A stretch of 64,000 bases of DNA, from the NCBI GenBank assembly GCA_963082975.1, contig OY720344.1:67794546-67858545 (forward strand). Direction: 5' to 3'. Every line of letters starts with the position of its first letter. The stretch's first letter is position 1. The notes beneath the pieces are model-generated. The model had not been told where the DNA came from. It ran no database searches and saw only the letters and a list, made by a program, of their open reading frames with translations. The position numbers and the translations under genes were made by a program. This document shows, in pieces, positions 1 to 61,936 of the stretch. Source of the DNA: Labia minor. Lineage: Eukaryota; Arthropoda; Insecta; Dermaptera; Spongiphoridae.

Positions 1-3000
1 CGACAGGCAAGACTGCAAATACAACTAGAGAAATGTCATTTCGCGGTGGGAGAAGTTGGGTACCTGGGGCATCGGGTGGGGAAAGATGGAGTCCGACCCG
101 ATCCAAAAACAGTGGAAGCGATTAATAACTACCCACAACCGAAAAACGTAAAAGAGATACAACAGTTTCTGGGACTCTCAGGGTGGTACAGGAGGTTTAT
201 CCCTGAGTATGCTAATATTGCGAAGCCATTGACGGTCCTCACGAAGAAAGACCAGAAGTTCCAATGGGGGAAGGACCAGGAACAAGCGTTTCTTTCTCTC
301 ACAAAATTCCTGTGTAGTGACACCGTACTCGTTTATCCAGATTTCACACTGCCGTTTATCTTGGCCACAGACGCCTCGAACGAGGCTTTAGGCGCAGTGT
401 TATCACAGCGTCGAGACGGATATGAAAGGCCGATTGCTTACGCTAGTCGAACGTTGAACAAGGCCGAAAGTAACTACACAGTAACGGAGAAAGAACTACT
501 TGCTGTAGTGTGGGCGACGCAACAATTTCGGTGTTACCTATATGGGAGGAAATTCCAACTGATAACTGACCACGCGGCCTTGAAATGGATGTTAAGTCTG
601 CATGATCCGTCACAGCGGTTGACACGATGGGCGCTACGACTGGCGGAATATGACTATACAGTAGAACATCGACCGGGGAAGTTACATCGGAATGCGGATG
701 CTCTCAGTAGGGTGAAAGTTAGTGAGGAAGGCCCTGAGTCGAAGGTGCATACGATTCGAACTTTATTGAGAACCACAGCGACCGAAAAAGAATGGCGCGA
801 ATCACAAGATCAAGATGAGGACTGTCAGCGGTGGGCACGGAGCGGCAAAGCCCAAGCAAGATCCGATGGGTGTTTGTACGTAGTAGATGATCACCAAACC
901 CGTCTAATGGTACCCCGAGAAAAGGTGCCCATGATATTGGAAGAGAATCATGATAGACCCACGGCGGGGCATAGAGGGGTACAGGGAACCTTATCACGAA
1001 TCCAGCGACAATATTTCTGGGAGGGAATGGAACGGGACGTAGAGTCCTGGGTGAAACAGTGTAGTATATGTACCCAGATGAAGTCGCCAACTGGACTTCG
1101 AGCTCCCGTTCAACCACATGAGATCCCCAGAAGGCCCTTCCAAATGATAGCACTAGATGTCGTGGAATTCCCGAAGTCCACCCGAGGTAATAGATACCTT
1201 TTGACGGTACTAGATCACTACTCCCGGTACTTGGAAGCGATACCCATGCCGAACCAAACAGCGGCCAGAGTGATCCGTGCGCTCACGGAAGAAGTAATAA
1301 GCCGGCATGGGATCCCAGAAATCATCTTAACCGATCAAGGAAGAAATTTCACCTCTAAACTATTCCTGGGACTATGTCAACGTTTAGGAATAAAAAAGGT
1401 ACAAACAACAGCCTATCATCCAGAATCGAATGGACGAGTGGAAAGGGTACACAAAACAATAAATGAGATGCTTCGACCGTGGGTGAGAACAGACGGTAAA
1501 GACTGGGATGTTTGGTTGCCATACGCGTTAATGGCTTATCGGAGCGGACCCCATTCCAGCACTGGGTTTTCGCCGAATGTGCTAGCATTCGGCCGGGAAA
1601 CAGACATTAATATCACCGTAAAAAATCAACATCATCAAGAAGAGCCAGATAGATGGGCATATCTAAACGACTTGTGTGACCGGATAGAACATCTACAACA
1701 ACGGTCGATAAATCAGTCGGAAGCCAGGTTACAGGCGAGCAGGAAACAGGCTAATAAACATCGAAAATTCCGAAGGTTCGAGGTAGGGGATGAAGTATAT
1801 GTATACAACCCCGTCCTGAAAGAGTCAGAAGCTCGGAAATTTTATAAGCCTTGGAAGGGCCCCTACACAATAGCGACAAAAAATTCCGAAGTGGTATATG
1901 GAGTGTGGTGGAGCCCCACTAAGATTGTCAACATACATGTGAATCGTTTGAAACCAGCCAATATAGAACGCCGCGGAGTGAACCGTGTATATGAACACAC
2001 GGGAGATATGTTGATGGCACCCAAAAATTACGCCCTAGCTCATTGCGTATCGGCCGACTTACGCATGTCCCAAGGTGTTGCAAAAACTATACGAGACACC
2101 TATCCGAGGCACCCTTGCGAAAAGATCCCAGAACCAACCATCGGAGAGATCCTAGTGCAATACCACCCAGATAGAGTAATACTTCACTGTGTCACGAAAA
2201 CAAAAGCGAGTGACAAGCCGCGCCCTGAAAACGTGAAAATGACAATCAAGAACCTTCTACTGAAAGCGACCGAGGTAGGAATCCCAGCATTGGCGGTTCC
2301 GCGCTTAGGATGCGGAATGGACGGCCTCAAATGGGTACAAGTCAAGAAGTGGCTAAAAGAGCTAACCCCCGACTACCCGGTGAGAGTACACGTATACACA
2401 CCAGCGGCCATTGGAACCCCAACGCCAACTGATGATGAAGAGGAGAAAAACCGGATTTGGGAGAGCGATTCGGATGACGATGTGTGGTCAGGGGAAGAGG
2501 ACATTTCATTGAGTCCGTGGCGAGAACAGAATGACTCCCAGCCCAATTGGAATGGAGTAGGACAACTAGATTATTCCGCAAGACCCAGCGAGATAGAGGA
2601 GATCGAGCCAGAAGGGGAGAAGGAAACACCCCCTGTAATAAATTTAGACAGCCAAGATGAAATAGACATCGCAGAAGCACTAAGGGAAGAGGAATCCCTC
2701 AGGATTGACAGAAGAGATCCAGAGTCTGGGCGACAGGAGACAGAGACCGGTGAGCACGTTACTCAAGGGGAAACAGGACAAGCTTCGCAGGATGAAGAAA
2801 GTCAAAGGGAGGAGGGGTGGGAGGATATAGATTCCCCGGCTAGCCCGGAGAAATCACCCAACACTCGGGACCAGAATGCACACCCTCCTCACACACCACC
2901 CAATAGAGATGTCCCGGTTAGGGGTAGCGTGGAGGCCCAACCCAGTACCAGTAGCCCGGGGACAAGCCCTCCCACAACAGCCGGGGCGACAAAGAACCCT

Positions 3001-3099
3001 AATACGAGTAAACCACCCGTTGGAGTCCCACCAAAAAAGAGAGGGGTAGGGCGTCCTAAAAAGAGAACCATTTGGAATTTCCATAAAAAAAAGGAGTAA
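1..3099 (+). CDS. pol: Pol polyprotein, 3' part: RT thumb, RNase H, integrase, macrodomain, AT-hook-like tail
   Basis: Replication and integration polyprotein; 1032 codons are visible and the frame is open at base 1, so the true start is upstream. Residues counted from base 1: the RT connection region (KCHF, YLGH, FLGLSGWYRRFI) occupies about 8-110. RNase H follows with acidic residues D124, E165, D190 and D233. The integrase zinc region has H317, H324, C354 and C357. The integrase core has D386, D445 and E481, with the expected D-x35-E spacing. The GPY/F module is near 620. A TARG1-like macrodomain follows directly (about 663-802), then a long acidic, Pro/Ser/Thr-rich, probably disordered tail, ending in a basic AT-hook-like motif (R1014-R1022) before the TAA. 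The domain chemistry is known for the families; the macrodomain's role here is inferred. All visible catalytic residues are present and I see no frameshift or stop. Confidence 0.95.
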   Translation, partial: RQARLQIQLEKCHFAVGEVGYLGHRVGKDGVRPDPKTVEAINNYPQPKNVKEIQQFLGLSGWYRRFIPEYANIAKPLTVLTKKDQKFQWGKDQEQAFLSLTKFLCSDTVLVYPDFTLPFILATDASNEALGAVLSQRRDGYERPIAYASRTLNKAESNYTVTEKELLAVVWATQQFRCYLYGRKFQLITDHAALKWMLSLHDPSQRLTRWALRLAEYDYTVEHRPGKLHRNADALSRVKVSEEGPESKVHTIRTLLRTTATEKEWRESQDQDEDCQRWARSGKAQARSDGCLYVVDDHQTRLMVPREKVPMILEENHDRPTAGHRGVQGTLSRIQRQYFWEGMERDVESWVKQCSICTQMKSPTGLRAPVQPHEIPRRPFQMIALDVVEFPKSTRGNRYLLTVLDHYSRYLEAIPMPNQTAARVIRALTEEVISRHGIPEIILTDQGRNFTSKLFLGLCQRLGIKKVQTTAYHPESNGRVERVHKTINEMLRPWVRTDGKDWDVWLPYALMAYRSGPHSSTGFSPNVLAFGRETDINITVKNQHHQEEPDRWAYLNDLCDRIEHLQQRSINQSEARLQASRKQANKHRKFRRFEVGDEVYVYNPVLKESEARKFYKPWKGPYTIATKNSEVVYGVWWSPTKIVNIHVNRLKPANIERRGVNRVYEHTGDMLMAPKNYALAHCVSADLRMSQGVAKTIRDTYPRHPCEKIPEPTIGEILVQYHPDRVILHCVTKTKASDKPRPENVKMTIKNLLLKATEVGIPALAVPRLGCGMDGLKWVQVKKWLKELTPDYPVRVHVYTPAAIGTPTPTDDEEEKNRIWESDSDDDVWSGEEDISLSPWREQNDSQPNWNGVGQLDYSARPSEIEEIEPEGEKETPPVINLDSQDEIDIAEALREEESLRIDRRDPESGRQETETGEHVTQGETGQASQDEESQREEGWEDIDSPASPEKSPNTRDQNAHPPHTPPNRDVPVRGSVEAQPSTSSPGTSPPTTAGATKNPNTSKPPVGVPPKKRGVGRPKKRTIWNFHKKKE
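1984..2406 (+). other. Macrodomain (TARG1/OARD1-like ADP-ribose hydrolase fold) inside pol
   Basis: Domain of the pol reading frame, about residues 663-802. It shows the macrodomain landmarks in order: a short GD-(L/M) start, LAHCVSADLRMSQGVA (compare the LAHCIS-D-RMGAGIA type loop of the TARG1 group), the CVTK-x-KASDKP-x-x-EN segment, then VPRLGCGMDGLKW and a final hydrophobic strand ending VYTP. TARG1 hydrolases use a Lys in the ITK-K-x-S-x-KP segment and an Asp in the GCG-x-D loop. The matching residues here are K733 (codon at 2197) and D774 (codon at 2320), both kept. TARG1 enzymes remove ADP-ribose from acidic residues and from DNA. What the element uses it for is unknown; countering host ADP-ribosylation or a DNA-linked step in integration are both only possibilities. 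It directly follows the GPY/F module, with no separate start codon needed. Confidence 0.88.
3035..3070 (+). other. AT-hook-like basic motif at the Pol C-terminus
   Basis: The last 20 residues of Pol are strongly basic and contain KKRGVGRPKKR, which resembles the AT-hook core (GRP flanked by Arg/Lys) that binds the minor groove of AT-rich DNA. It follows a roughly 200-residue acidic, low-complexity stretch. A role in tethering the integrase to AT-rich targets is inference. Confidence 0.6.
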
Positions 3100-3100
3100 T

Positions 3101-3125
3101 GTTTCTTTGTTTCTTCTCTCACAGG
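3101..3125 (+). promoter_or_regulatory. Predicted 3' splice site for env mRNA
   Basis: A pyrimidine tract running from 3101 to 3122 ends in CACAG (AG at 3123-3124) and sits between the pol stop (3097-3099) and the env ATG at 3142. Env of errantiviruses is made from a spliced subgenomic RNA, and this is a textbook acceptor in the right place. The donor must be upstream of the window. Confidence 0.75.
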
Positions 3126-3141
3126 CCAAACTAACGATGCG

Positions 3142-4938
3142 ATGGGGAAGCAGGCGAGGGAGAGGGAGGAGATAATGCCACTGGGAGTCTATTTTGAACC
3201 AGTCGACGATGTGATAATTACGGGAGATGAGTGGCGGATTGTAACGGAAGTCGACGTGAAAGAGATTCAAGGGAAGGTATCGGTCATCAGGGATTCTCTG
3301 GAGAAATTACAGGATGACCGATACGCTCTCTTGGAAGGAGAACCTTTGAAGACAATAGATTTTAAGGAGGATATGTCCTATATTAAGACCAGTTTCGAGA
3401 TGACGGAGGGGATTATTTCACATTTGAGTGAAATGCTACCCCCGGCGCGAAGTCGACGTGGTCTGGTGGACGCGGGGGGGCACGTTTTAAAATTCATTTT
3501 CGGAACTTTAGATAATGAAGATCTGGTGGAATTGAATACCAGATTACAAAATTTAAATGAAGTTAATGAACAAATGAGTCATTACTTCGATGATCAAATT
3601 ACAGCATTAGACCAACTCGACCATAAAACTAATCAAAATTTCGACTTGATTAAACAACATGCTAGAACATTATTGGAATTAGCCACTTTGATAGACCAAA
3701 ATTTTAATTCGACACTTGGACGGCAAAACGCAGCCGAAAAATTTTTTCAAGAAGCGTTAGAATTAATGACTAAGACACGACGCCTGGGGCAAGCAGTGAC
3801 GTCAGTTCGAAACTGGTTAGAGGATATCCTCGGGATTGTTCAATCGGCGGCAGCGGGACGCCTCGATGCGCGATTGATCAACCCAAAAATGTTATTAGAA
3901 TTAATGATAGATATAAATAAGAAACTCCCCGAAGGACAAGAATGGCTGACCCCGCTAGAATTACGATTTATTTATAAGTACTATGACACCTCATTAGTGA
4001 AAGTGTATAGTGTCAGGGACGCTATCCGTTTCGTGATCTCCCTTCCGTTGAAGACAGTATCCCAGTCAGGAACAATATATTTCGTTCATGTGGTGCCTAC
4101 AGCTCGGGGGGGAGTGAGGACCAAGTTAGTGAAAATTTCCCCGTGGATCCTAGTAACGCATGACCACCAAAAATATACCACGCTAGAACATAGATATGTG
4201 GACAACTGCCGAGGACGGGAGCCTATGGTGTGTCAACAGCCTATTCCACTCGTAGCCCGATCCCAACTCAGTTGTGTCAGCGCCCTCTTCTTCAAACAGG
4301 CGGAGCATCTAGACAGTTACTGCTCATGGGAAGTGTTATTAGGGGCGGTTACTGATTTTTGGGAACCATCATATTCTGGTTCCCATTGGTATTATAGTAT
4401 ATCACGACCTCAAGTGGCCCGACAAAGTTGCCGTACCGGTAGCGAACCTAGGTTCGATGATATTCAACTACATCGACAAGGCATCGTTACCATTCCGGAG
4501 GGATGTCAGCTACATACAAATCAACATCTGTTGATGTCTAGGAGCGCGGGTCAATCGAGAATCATGATAACAACTCCAGCGATATTTACCGGCCAGAAAG
4601 AAGAACCCCTAATAACAGAGACATCGTGTAAGGAGAACACGATACTGGCGGAGGGACTGAAAAGTTTGGAGTCGATAAGAGCGGAGTTGGGAAGGACCTC
4701 GATGAGTGTTCCATTATCCAGGTTGCGAGAGGAGGCGAGGTTGATACAGAGCAAAAGGAAACAACATCTTATCGCTGGCGGAACCGGTGGTGGAACAGTT
4801 TTAGTGAGTCTATGTGGACTAGTGGGGTATCTTTGGTGGAAGAAGTGCGCACGCAGAAAGAAGGAGGCCGAGGAGCTGCAAAATCAACTGGGAAGTGATG
4901 TGGACATAGACAAAACAGAGGAGGGGTCGAACTGTTGA
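3142..4938 (+). CDS. env: Envelope fusion protein, baculovirus F / errantivirus Env type
   Basis: Class I-like membrane fusion glycoprotein family that gives errantiviruses their retrovirus-like envelope. The frame has 598 codons. A furin-type site RSRR (residues 103-106) is followed by a Gly/hydrophobic fusion-peptide region with the family signature leading into FGTLD (about 107-130), then a long helical, heptad-like region (about 130-225). A Cys-containing ectodomain follows, then a membrane helix at about 543-566 and a short basic cytosolic tail of about 32 residues. The first residues are hydrophilic and the YFE...W-x-x-VT stretch that normally follows the signal peptide begins almost at once, so the signal peptide is missing from this frame and may be on an upstream exon. 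ATG 3142 was chosen because it is the first ATG in frame after the splice site; the frame is open from 3100. No disabling mutation is seen. Confidence 0.9.
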   Translation: MGKQAREREEIMPLGVYFEPVDDVIITGDEWRIVTEVDVKEIQGKVSVIRDSLEKLQDDRYALLEGEPLKTIDFKEDMSYIKTSFEMTEGIISHLSEMLPPARSRRGLVDAGGHVLKFIFGTLDNEDLVELNTRLQNLNEVNEQMSHYFDDQITALDQLDHKTNQNFDLIKQHARTLLELATLIDQNFNSTLGRQNAAEKFFQEALELMTKTRRLGQAVTSVRNWLEDILGIVQSAAAGRLDARLINPKMLLELMIDINKKLPEGQEWLTPLELRFIYKYYDTSLVKVYSVRDAIRFVISLPLKTVSQSGTIYFVHVVPTARGGVRTKLVKISPWILVTHDHQKYTTLEHRYVDNCRGREPMVCQQPIPLVARSQLSCVSALFFKQAEHLDSYCSWEVLLGAVTDFWEPSYSGSHWYYSISRPQVARQSCRTGSEPRFDDIQLHRQGIVTIPEGCQLHTNQHLLMSRSAGQSRIMITTPAIFTGQKEEPLITETSCKENTILAEGLKSLESIRAELGRTSMSVPLSRLREEARLIQSKRKQHLIAGGTGGGTVLVSLCGLVGYLWWKKCARRKKEAEELQNQLGSDVDIDKTEEGSNC

Positions 4939-4980
4939 AAAGGATTGTTTCGGTAAGAATCTTTACCGAAACAATCTTTT
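4939..4980 (+). other. Strong hairpin between env stop and polypurine tract
   Basis: A perfect 14-bp inverted repeat (4943-4956 against 4963-4976) extends to about 18 bp with A-T and G-T pairs. It begins at the base after the env stop codon and ends two bases before the polypurine tract. The flanking A and T runs make it look like a bacterial terminator, but the context is eukaryotic. Its function is unknown. Confidence 0.85.
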
Positions 4981-4982
4981 TT

Positions 4983-4996
4983 AAAGGGTAGGGGAG
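4983..4996 (+). promoter_or_regulatory. Polypurine tract (plus-strand primer)
   Basis: A nearly pure A/G run with one T (AAAGGGTAGGGGAG) directly abuts the TG that begins the 3' LTR. This is where RNase H-resistant RNA primes plus-strand DNA synthesis. Confidence 0.85.
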
Positions 4997-5815
4997 TGTA
5001 ATATATTAGGAATATATATCGCTGTTCACCCATTAAGGGCCCCTAGAGAATGTATTTTTTTCACAAGCTGGCAATTCTCATAATAGAAATAATAGAAATA
5101 ATAGAAATAAGTTAAGGAAAAATGCATGTAAGTGGAAGCGAGATAGGTGATAAGAGATGGAGGAGGAGGTGGGGAGCCCGACGGAGTGGATAGCGGAAGG
5201 TGATGTGAACGAAGGCCGAGAGGAGAGGGAGGACACAGTTGCGCTGGCGAGCTGAGATAGTACATCAGAGGCGAAGTGAATGAATTATCGATAATTATAA
5301 AATGTTTGTGTTAATATTGATCTGTTTAGTGAATATGTGTTCCTGGCCAGGAGAGTGTGAGTAAAGCAAATTTAATTACATCAAATGCATTTGAATAAAT
5401 TCGTATGAAATTGAGTAAATAAATGAATTAATATAAAATTAATTAAATAAGCAAGTTGAATTAAATAAGTTATAATCGAAAGAATTAATGTAAAATTGAT
5501 TGAATAAATAAATTAAATAATATAAATTATGATTAAATGAATTAATGTAAAATTAATTAAATAAACAAGTTGAATTAAATAAGTTATAATTAAAAGAATT
5601 AATGTAAAATTGATTGAATAATTAAATTAAATAATATAAATTATAATTAACTGGATTAATATAAAATTAATAATTGTAACTAAATTAAATAAATTATATT
5701 TGAATTAAATTAAATGATGTTTTTAATAAACAATTGACACATTCGTCGTATATAGGTGGCATGATCTCGTTCCTTCTTTCTAGCATTGGTGCAAGTAAGT
5801 ACGCGGCACGTTACA
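4997..5815 (+). repeat. 3' LTR
   Basis: Begins TGTAA right after the polypurine tract and ends TTACA, so the termini are inverted repeats as expected; length 819 bp. The first about 350 bp are mixed in composition; the remainder is extremely AT-rich and contains tandem repeats. A TATAAAA at 5296-5302 is a candidate core promoter and several AATAAA hexamers lie further on, but neither is proven. No second LTR copy lies in the window, so age cannot be estimated from LTR divergence. Confidence 0.85.
5425..5700 (+). repeat. 114-bp tandem repeat inside the LTR
   Basis: A unit of 114 bp starts at 5425, 5539 and 5653 (the last copy partial). The units differ by only a few substitutions. The array is about 85-90% A+T and makes up a third of the LTR. 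A shorter triplication of a 9-base AATAGAAAT-like unit lies at about 5080-5110. Confidence 0.8.
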
Positions 5816-7998
5816 TATATATATATATAACGCTAATAGAAAAGTTCATCCATTCATAAGAAAGACAATGAACCCTTTTTAAAAAAAGATGAATTTGTTA
5901 ATTTTGTAGAGAAACTAATAATTACCTAACTAATAAGGGCTGTTAACATTTTATGCATTATATAATAGAATAAAACAACTACATACTCTCATTTTATATA
6001 AACAAAAGTGCAAAATACTATTCTAGAAATATACAAACCATAATTTAACTTAATTATTCTCTGACCTTAAAATTATAAATCCTTAAAAACCTTTTCACTA
6101 TAAAAAATAGCAGTTTGTTATAAACTACTGGACAGTTTAATCATATTTTTTAAAAATTTAAAAATAGAAACTCAAAAAGGGAAAATATTTATTATGTTTT
6201 CAATAATATTATTATTATTAATGTTTTCTTTGCATAGATATTTACACCGTTAGTTAATGAAATAAAAAAAAAATTACTTATTTTAGAAAATTTGATTAAT
6301 TGTCGAAAACTTAGTTTGGATGTATATGGTATATGGTATATACGATCTATAGATCAATAGTAATGAAACTTGATGACGAGGTTTCAAAACTAATCAAGTT
6401 CACACAAATATAATATGAAAGTAAATTAAAAAAAAAAATAAGATAAAGATTTAAAATAATATCATAAAATGGTTATTCTAATTTAAATATACTTGCTAAT
6501 GTGGGAGTTGCCATAAGACACAAATTCATGTAAAGTTTTCCCATAAATGATGATAATAAAGATTTATATTATTAAATGTAATTAAAACAGATTTAGTGCG
6601 TAAAAAGTTGAATGCTTTCTGTTTTATTACTTCTATTAGTTTTCCAATAGAGGATCATTTTTTTTACCTATCATCTTACCTAACATAAACGAACAAGTTT
6701 AAAATTTCGTTATAATAAAGAGTGAAAAGGTAGAATTAGAAGAGGTTCTATAACTATAAGAGGGTGTCAATGAGAATCTCCTCGCACATGAATAGATAGA
6801 ATGTCTCTGCCTGTTTTAATTTTCTGAATCATTTGCTCTCCCTGTTCCCCTCCTACCTCTTTCTTTCTGCAAACCATTTTCTTGAACCAATAGCACGCCA
6901 GATTAACTCTTGGATTTCAAACGATTTTATTTTTTTTTTATTCTTTTTTTTGCAACCCGAAGAATTTCAAACTCTTTTACATTTTATGTTCTTAACGAAA
7001 ATATCCAAAGTTTTTTCACTCCGCTCAAGATCATACATAATCACTATTTTTTTTTGTTTTATTTTTAATTATCCCATTAGTAGATTTAAAAGTTTGTTAT
7101 CGCTAACACCCATGCAACATTTAAAAAATTAATTAATCCCTACATGAAAACAATATAATTATTATGATTTTTGACGGATTATATATCAAATTAATTAATT
7201 CAAAAATAATAATTAAAATTAGTTTTCAAGACTAGAATTATGGACAGGTTTGATTTTTGATATACAAAAAAAAAAATACATAGTCCCACACACTGTATTG
7301 GTTTTACAATAACATTTCGCCAGACCATGTCGTTTCACAAACACCGTATTCACCTGATTATACACCGAGCGACCTCTGGCTGAATTCAAACTCATTTCGA
7401 TGACATCGTTTCGACACGACTGAGAAAATAAAAACCTAATCAAGACAAATATTGAAGAGGGATTCAATGAAAAAATATCTACTTCTCTGAATGTTTTAAG
7501 GATTGGTAATATAATGTAGAACTATGGGTAATATTTTAATGGTGGCTAAATTGATTTCTAAGAATAAATAAACATTTTTGATTTTATAAATAAAATCAAT
7601 TAATTATTTATCACTGGGTTATTCTCAATAGTCTGAAATTAAAGAATTCCAATTATTACTTTGTTAAAATTAGTTCTGAAATGAGATGAAGAGTCGAATT
7701 GTCATTATCTTCTCCTAAGTCAAAGTTCAATTGATTATTAGTAATCTAATGGTCAGATTGTTTAATTAGCTTGTCCAACTAAATGTCAGTTCCAGAACAA
7801 TCATGTATGTGCAAATCATTTTGTTGCACAATTATTCATTGATAAAACAGAAAGGAGTTACTAATTTATTAAGCTTAGTTCAATCATTTTTTAATCAAAT
7901 CTTAAATAAAAAATTAAATTACAAATTATCATAGTAATTCGTTAAAAAATTAACATAGCAATTCCAAACATAAATTGACATAGCAATTCCAAAGATAA
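5816..7998. other. AT-rich DNA, no gene seen
   Basis: Starts with a (TA)n tract at the LTR junction. Mostly 75-85% A+T with homopolymer runs. Slightly GC-richer patches lie at about 6730-7060 and 7220-7480; the open frames there are short and match no protein family I know. Confidence 0.6.
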
Positions 7999-53382: not shown

Positions 53383-53793
53383 CTATTCTGTGTTTCTAAT
53401 TTTCTGCCTTTTTATCAAGAAGGCATCTAATGTAGTTTGCGTTTTCCTTGTGAGTTCTGTTAGAAGTTGTTGATAAGTGGATAAAACATCTATAACACCT
53501 CGTCTTGCTTTTGAACTCCTGTCAAAATTTGGATCATTTTCAACAAATTGGTCCATAATTTCAGTTATAGTGGTCAAACTGCTTTTTACAAACGCCATCG
53601 AAAGTTCTTTTTGCTCTTCGGAATCATTACTATTAATATTTTTGTTTTCTTCTTGCTCAGTTAATTCCTTGAGCTCATCATTAGAAAGACTAGCTGCTGT
53701 TTCTTGAACTATTTCTTCGACTTCTTCCACATTTACCTCATCTAAACCGGTTTGTTTCGCTAATTCCACTATTTCTTCCAAAATTTTATTCAT
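53383..53793 (-). pseudogene. Tigger/pogo transposase C-terminal tail
   Basis: Minus strand; the open frame extends upstream to about 53865 without an ATG. It has EEIVELAKQTGLD, NDELKELTEQEE, an EIMDQF segment, a SKARRGV block, then ELTRKTQTTLDAFL near the end. That order (acidic linker, helical tail, TTLDxFF end) is the C-terminus of Tigger/jerky-like transposases. No catalytic Asp. An uninterrupted 136-codon frame could be mistaken for a host gene. Confidence 0.85.
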
Positions 53794-53825
53794 ATCGACG
53801 GAGTGTCCAATGTCTTCACTCTTAC

Positions 53826-54035
53826 TTAAATCTGGCCAAATGTTGAAGTTGCCGATGAGAGTATCTTTTTTTTATTCTTAAGAATTGTTCTTATTGTTGA
53901 AGTTGACAAATTCAATGTAGCACTAATTTGAGATTGACGTTCACCAGAATCTAATCTTCTAATCACTTGCATTTTAGTTTCCAGTGAAATGATTTTTCTG
54001 GTTGCTTTCTTTTCTTGTTTTTCGTTATTACCCAT
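53826..54035 (-). pseudogene. Tigger/pogo transposase N-terminus (HTH), 69 codons
   Basis: Minus strand, reading KIISLETKMQVIRRLDSGER, then ISATLNLSTSTIRTILKNKK: the first helix-turn-helix of CENP-B/pogo transposases, which binds the terminal repeats. The frame then ends in a stop after a run of eight A (minus strand), where a one-base slip would join the C-terminal frame (53383-53793). The rest of the DNA-binding region and the DDE domain are deleted. Confidence 0.85.
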
Positions 54036-54822: not shown

Positions 54823-54895
54823 CGCCCGAACAGGGACTTGAACCCTGGACCCTTAGATTAAAAGTCTAATGCTCTACCGACTGAGCTATCCAGGC
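54823..54895 (-). tRNA. tRNA-Lys(UUU)
   Basis: 73 nt, minus strand, decoding Lys AAA/AAG. Anticodon loop CTTTTAA gives UUU. All arms pair: acceptor GCCTGGA with TTCGGGC (7 bp, with U-G and G-U wobbles), D-arm GCTC/GAGC, anticodon arm TTAGA/TCTAA, T-arm CAGGG/CCCTG, discriminator G. Box A (TAGCTCAGTCGG) and box B (GGTTCAAGTCC) are intact. A run of T follows shortly after the 3' end as the RNA polymerase III terminator. Two acceptor-stem wobbles relative to the usual eukaryotic sequence keep pairing, so function is plausible. Confidence 0.93.
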
Positions 54896-55609: not shown

Positions 55610-56430
55610 TATATGTTATATCTATCTACCTATGTGGCTCAAAGATACTCGAAAGTTCTTAGCCGCAACAACCACATTTCTCCAAGTGTCCCTATCCTGA
55701 GCCCTTATTCCATCTCTCTTACGTCCCTTCCTACGCGTCATTGGTTTTCCAAGCGGACGTTTTCCAATCGGTCTTCCCACCAATATCTTTTTCCTCTCCC
55801 ATTCTAGCCACGTGCCCTGCCTATCGCAGCTTTTTCCCTTTTATAACCCTAACTATTTCTGAAGATGCAGAGAGGCCATGCAATTTCTTGTTATACAGTC
55901 TCCCCCATTCCCCGGTGACCTCATCTTTCTTTGGCCAATAAATGCAGGGAAGAATCCTATTCTCAAACACTCTGAATCTACTCTCATCTCCCAGGGTCAT
56001 AGACCATGCCTCCCACCCATATAATGCAACAGGCAAAATAATCTTTTTATATATTCCCTTTGATAATAATTTTGAAGAGATAAGCCTCTTTATTGCAGAT
56101 AACAGGCGTTTCCCGATTGCAACCCCGATTTAAATTCTTCTCAAATATTATTATCCTTCGTGATTACATTCAATTTTTCAACATATTCAAATTCTACATT
56201 TTGCATCTTAAGATTTTGTATGTTAATACTCTTCCTCTTTGTTACTAAATATTTTTTCTTATCACTATTAATTTCAAACCTCCATTAAATTTTCCTCGCT
56301 ATCTGTAATTGCAATTGCCGAATCTCCTATTATATTTAAGTCGTCTGAGTAACCTAATATTTTACAATTGATTTCCGCATCTTATTCTTTCTTTACTACC
56401 TTCAAGAGAAATTTGAAGATTGAAAATTTG
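55610..56430 (-). pseudogene. LINE family 1, longest copy with RT core
   Basis: Minus strand from 56430: YSDDLNIIGDSA (the YxDD catalytic box, with Ser for Ala), then MQNVEFEYVEK, GNACYLAIKRL-type segment, LPVALYGWEAWSMTLGDESR, ENRIL, PKKDEVTGEWGRL, LHGL and a C-terminal part, ending in a GATA-type tail at about 55620. Upstream, 56440-56620 continues with an FNISVHYLFVDFSKTY motif, the RT motif that carries the first Asp. Several frameshifts. This copy best defines the family. Confidence 0.88.
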
Positions 56431-61461: not shown

Positions 61462-61936
61462 TTTTCCGGATGTATTATATGGGTGTGAGACATGATCTAT
61501 GATCTTAGGAGACGAGAGTAGTTTTAGAGTATTTGAGAATAAGATTAGTCACAGCATTTATGGGCCAAAGAAAGATGAGGTTACCGGGGAATGGCGGAGA
61601 CTGCATAACGAGGAATTGCATGACCTCTATGCATCTCCAGATATAGTTAGAATTATAAAATCGAGAAGGTTGCGATGGGCAGGGCACGTGACTAGAATGG
61701 GAGAGGAAAGAATGGCGAAAAATATATTGGTGGGGAGACCGAGTGGGAAACGTCCGCTTGGAAGACCAAGGACACGGTGGGCGAATAATGTGGGAAGGGA
61801 CGTGAGAGAGATGGGAGAGGGTAGGGATTGGAGGGTTGTGGCTCAGAATAGGGATACTTGGAGAGGTGTGGTTGCTGCGACCAAGAACTTTCGAGTTCCC
61901 TAGAGCCACAGAGATAGATAGAAAGATTGATAGATC
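61462..61936 (+). pseudogene. LINE family 1, 3' end, plus strand
   Basis: Plus strand: PDVLYGCET-stop-SM, GDESSFRVFENK, PKKDEVTGEWRRLHNEELHD, RRLRWAGHVTRMGEER, GKRPLGRPRTRW and NFRVP before the stop at 61901-61903, then a short 3' UTR and GATA/AGAT tail to 61936. The frame is open for 134 codons after a Trp-to-stop change, so it is a 5'-truncated, dead insertion. The best-preserved C-terminus among the four copies. Confidence 0.88.

Follow-up and report, generated by a model that had tools for sequence, protein, structure and literature searches.

A macrodomain, very probably of the TARG1 class and with its catalytic pair intact, lies fused behind the integrase of an env-bearing Ty3/gypsy-type (Metaviridae) retroelement in the dermapteran insect Labia minor. 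The element stands at the start of a stretch of 64,000 nucleotides (GenBank assembly GCA_963082975.1, contig OY720344.1, positions 67,794,546 to 67,858,545 of the forward strand), which was analyzed as a whole and is called here the window. Bases 1-3099 form a single open frame on the + strand, the 5' end of which is cut off by the window edge. This frame stays open through the integrase and the macrodomain and for about 230 further residues, the tail, until the stop that precedes env, and the window contains no N. The fusion is confirmed as an observation, and what is directly established comprises the macrodomain with its catalytic residues and predicted fold, and its position right behind the GPY motif of the integrase in one open frame. 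We propose, with a probability of roughly 0.4, that this domain is an active ADP-ribosylhydrolase which is borne by the integrase and would clear ADP-ribose within the integration complex. What is new is the place of a known enzyme domain, namely the joining of a macrodomain to an integrase; the capture of macro domains by retroviral elements is itself known.

Identity and catalytic residues of the macrodomain

The first-pass annotation had described a TARG1-like macrodomain that follows the integrase in the same frame and retains its catalytic Lys and Asp, and had called for a profile search and a structure prediction. Both bear the description out, as do sequence comparison and alignment: the match to Pfam Macro lies above cut-off and the predicted fold is nearest to that of TARG1. 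In sequence comparison, TARG1 (OARD1, C6orf130), an ALC1-like macrodomain hydrolase, was the best match at 31% identity, and a fold search with the macrodomain model ranked TARG1 best and DarG next. A second model, built for bases 1750-2460, recovered the macrodomain and again placed TARG1 at the top of the fold comparison. Chance similarity to macrodomains was rejected on the strength of these sequence and fold matches to TARG1. DarG, the antitoxin partner of the bacterial DarTG toxin-antitoxin pair, is a more distant likeness, the domain scoring 43.3 bits against the cut-off of 250 for the NCBIfam DarG equivalog and thus falling far short of it. From TARG1 itself the domain differs by its low identity, by its fusion behind a retroelement integrase and by an RMSQG sequence in place of an MGAG-like loop.

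The macrodomain was aligned with 87 of 120 listed proteins (1297 were found in all). The TARG1 pair, Lys84 and position 125, has its aligned counterparts in the Lys of codon 2197 and the Asp of codon 2320, both of which are invariant in the 87 relatives. A passage in a review gives the second catalytic residue of TARG1 as Glu125 (PMC7050489); the aligned human TARG1 chain has an Asp at the place printed there as Glu125. Fifteen columns, counted among those with at least 60 letters, are identical in all 87 relatives, and the macrodomain keeps 12 of them, the Lys and Asp included. Among columns with less than 80% conservation it has the most frequent letter in only 19 of 97, a difference from the invariant set with a Fisher p of 8e-6, which is a rough value since the columns are not independent. 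ADP-ribosylhydrolase activity is predicted from the catalytic pair.

The element and the place of the fusion

The Pol frame was scanned against Pfam in pieces, and the following features were assigned to the element.

265..651, + strand: RNase H domain of Pol (RT_RNaseH E 3.8e-42 and RT_RNaseH_2 E 9.8e-38, in the piece 1-660)
910..1086, + strand: integrase zinc-binding domain (Integrase_H2C2 E 1.1e-21)
1129..1441, + strand: integrase core with D (1156), D (1333) and E (1441), the last two spaced by 35 residues (two rve matches, E 4.8e-8 and 8.7e-5, and alignment to Ty3 and foamy-virus integrase)
1858..1956, + strand: integrase C-terminal module, GPY motif at 1858-1866 (Integrase_p58_C E 7.1e-5; 23.3 bits, below the cut-off of 27)
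1981..2403, + strand: TARG1/DarG-type macrodomain, Lys codon 2197-2199 and Asp codon 2320-2322 (Pfam, sequence, fold and alignment)
2404..3096, + strand: C-terminal tail of Pol, acidic and then basic at its end (charge counts; no Pfam family in 2461-3096)
3142..4938, + strand: env open reading frame (ORF) of 598 amino acids (Baculo_F E 1.3e-28; open frame)
4983..4996, + strand: purine-rich tract preceding the long terminal repeat (LTR), read from the sequence
4997..5815, + strand: probable 3' LTR, TGTAA...TTACA, followed by a TA run, read from the sequence; the 5' LTR lies beyond the window, so that the ends are provisional

The macrodomain begins about 38 residues past the GPY motif. Near the end of Pol, behind the acidic stretch, the tail carries RGVGRPKKR (3040-3066), which we take to be AT-hook-like. 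The probable 3' LTR has an A+T content far above that of the coding part of the element and contains a 57-base AT-rich tandem repeat at 5420-5704; the coding parts have 45-52% G+C, compared with 26% in the flank beyond.

The element is an env-bearing member of the Ty3/gypsy type: RNase H lies ahead of the integrase, and the integrase is of the Ty3 kind, with Ty3 as its best PDB match (E 1.1e-30), followed by foamy-virus integrase (E 2.7e-23), the acidic residues being aligned. The label of errantivirus, which the first-pass annotation had used, is doubtful. The env is of errantivirus type, and the baculovirus-F-like env behind pol is what the element shares with gypsy, ZAM and Idefix. However, errantivirus integrases are described, in a rule drawn from Drosophila elements, as lacking the GPY/F motif, with LTRs that end in AGT/AnT (PMC5408687). 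The GPY motif of the present element does not fit that description, nor would its probable TG..CA LTR ends (with the 5' LTR beyond the window); the macrodomain is a further difference. Chromoviruses carry a chromodomain at the integrase C-terminus behind GPF/GPY, as stated in the relevant passage of PMC3605345, and they resemble the element in having an extra domain at this position but differ in that the domain is a chromodomain instead of a macrodomain and in that the present element has env. A chromodomain was considered in the element and rejected, since Pfam (E up to 1) returned Macro and Integrase_p58_C in 1780-2460 and nothing in 2461-3096, although a strongly diverged one could escape such a scan.

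Within bases 6001-64000 no second copy of the element was found. A blastn search with bases 1-6000 gave a single AT-rich match of 82 columns, and tblastn gave no match to the integrase, two to the macrodomain (E 4.1 and 7.3) and one to env (E 0.99). Elsewhere in the window, a tRNA-Lys gene with anticodon TTT lies at 54823-54895 (- strand). The longest ORF outside the element, at 53383-53871 (- strand, 162 amino acids), has only Pfam matches below cut-off. Two further ORFs, at 55821-56129 (- strand) and 61496-61903 (+ strand), have in common a stretch starting DEVTGEW and resemble the ends of non-LTR retrotransposon proteins; none of these three flank ORFs had a Pfam match above cut-off.

Relatives and origin of the macrodomain

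The macrodomain alignment identified 67 loci encoding a related macrodomain among viral contigs and 20 in prokaryote genomes (18 in Paenibacillus, where TARG1-like macrodomains thus form a cluster, one in Saccharibacillus and one in a Desulfobacteraceae). Related macrodomains also turned up by tblastn in 18 phage and 11 plasmid records. A protein search with the macrodomain alone confirmed one of 18 candidates, a stand-alone macrodomain. Fold matches to the macrodomain model among predicted viral proteins include VP8 of Kadipiro virus and proteins of negev-like and virga-like viruses of thrips (E 1e-14 to 1e-10), which suggests that macrodomains of the TARG1 kind occur across such invertebrate viruses. 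In a quick tree, for which 63 of the 88 aligned rows were used, the macrodomain has an end branch of 4.0 and lies within no starred set, and its identity to the tree rows is at most 37%. Given these fold matches, transfer between invertebrate viruses is as possible as the host capture suggested in the first-pass annotation, and the tree speaks for neither.

The first-pass annotation knew of no errantivirus with a macrodomain. The fusion to an integrase was not found in the titles and abstract openings of open-licence literature, the protein search or viral-contig scans, all of which cover insect genomes poorly. The acquisition of a macro domain by retroviral elements has, however, a precedent in fish epsilon-like endogenous retroviruses (ERVs) with macro-domain ORFs, for which a review cites Basta et al. 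2009 (PMC4977317). In the review's passage on them, these are additional ORFs, a fusion to integrase is not mentioned and the class of macrodomain is unstated; the hosts are vertebrates. What they have in common with the present element is the presence of a macro domain in an element of retroviral kind.

A proposed role for the macrodomain in integration

In the reading we prefer, the macrodomain would stay with the integrase in the pre-integration complex, and thus at cDNA ends and integration gaps. There the macrodomain would strip off the ADP-ribose that host PARPs attach to the ends of the cDNA, to integration intermediates with gaps, or to the integrase and chromatin proteins close by, such that the ends remain usable and the site repairable. 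Such an activity has parallels among its nearest relatives. Both TARG1 and DarG take ADP-ribose off the thymidine of DNA, and cells are not rescued from DarT by lysine mutants of either (PMC8501950); ADP-ribose made by PARP1 on telomeric DNA is removed by TARG1 (PMC11102865); and the termini of nucleic acids are a further place where TARG1 acts on ADP-ribose (PMC7050489). The sharing of one frame with an intact D,D-35-E integrase supports the same reading. It is the chromodomain-like position, the catalytically complete domain and the action of TARG1 and DarG on DNA, taken together, that lead us to prefer an eraser of ADP-ribose in the integration complex over the alternatives below.

Another possibility, which we regard as unlikely, is that the domain serves in defence evasion apart from integration and, either on Pol or cut free from it, strips proteins of the element or of the host of antiviral ADP-ribosylation. 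Coronaviruses, togaviruses and hepeviruses have ADP-ribosylhydrolase macrodomains according to the review already cited (PMC7050489), and both the matches in Kadipiro virus and the thrips viruses and the macro-domain ORFs of fish ERVs fit such a role. The RNA-virus enzymes are, however, described in that review as being of MacroD type, whereas the domain of the element is nearest to TARG1 and DarG, and it lies in frame behind the integrase, a nuclear protein, without an ORF of its own. Somewhat less probable still is a reader or tether, a domain that binds chromatin-borne ADP-ribose where PARPs are active and guides integration to these sites, its hydrolysis being secondary or lost. The altered RMSQG loop would suit this role, as would a Pol tail with what we assume to be an AT-hook-like motif. 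So would the position, which is that of the chromodomain behind GPF/GPY (PMC3605345, as above); chromodomains direct integration to heterochromatin, according to a title in the reference list of that paper. Yet Lys and Asp, which are required for hydrolysis but not for binding alone, are kept together with other invariant positions.

The least probable of the alternatives, in our judgment, is that the macrodomain is without function for the element, either a passenger that was fused by chance to a single copy or the product of an assembly join. The single copy and the want of a fused relative in the protein search and the viral-contig scans are compatible with this, and so is codon use: scored against the synonymous codon usage of Pol, the macrodomain reaches -1.255 per codon, which is worse than all eight Pol windows (-1.093 to -1.237) and than uniform use (-1.187). 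It has more C at third positions, and its fit to the base composition of the flank is worse still (-1.346). In contrast, its base composition (A 33%, T 18%, G+C 50%) is that of the element and unlike that of the flank, and the frame continues through the tail to the stop before env. The domain is also far diverged from TARG1 and from all tree rows while retaining most of the invariant columns, and a young passenger would therefore need an unsampled source that was already so divergent.

Returning to an integrase-borne eraser, several observations weigh against it. The macrodomain departs from its relatives at three of the 15 invariant columns (F to L, L to M and F to T). Its binding loop reads RMSQG where relatives mostly have MGAG, with Ser at that Gly in 3 of the 87 and Gln at that Ala in none, so that substrate or turnover may differ. 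The second model is of low confidence upstream of the macrodomain, no alignment rows covering the integrase, and thus carries no information on how the integrase tail and the macrodomain pack; a protease might cut the macrodomain off the integrase. Only one copy was seen in the 64-kb window. When the piece 1300-3096 was used in the protein search and scored on the macrodomain, none of the 156 candidates reached E <= 0.001, in a search whose length range left out proteins above about 1048 amino acids and hence most full-length Pol. Scans of viral contigs with the macrodomain query (seven pattern matches, none confirmed), the motif pattern and the integrase piece gave no fused relative.

In summary, the element may clean or read ADP-ribose marks at its insertion sites. 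A wider claim, that an env-bearing gypsy-type lineage built de-ADP-ribosylation into its integrase and clears its own DNA ends and integration gaps, is a tentative one which we consider doubtful; if true, host ADP-ribosylation of DNA would be a restriction on retroelement integration. The C-terminal module of the integrase would also have been exchanged in an unusual way, with a macrodomain where chromoviruses have a chromodomain, and what this tail reads or erases would be directly testable. Should the domain prove active and accompany the integrase, retroelement integration would be contested through ADP-ribosylation, and DNA ADP-ribosylation would have a natural context in animals.
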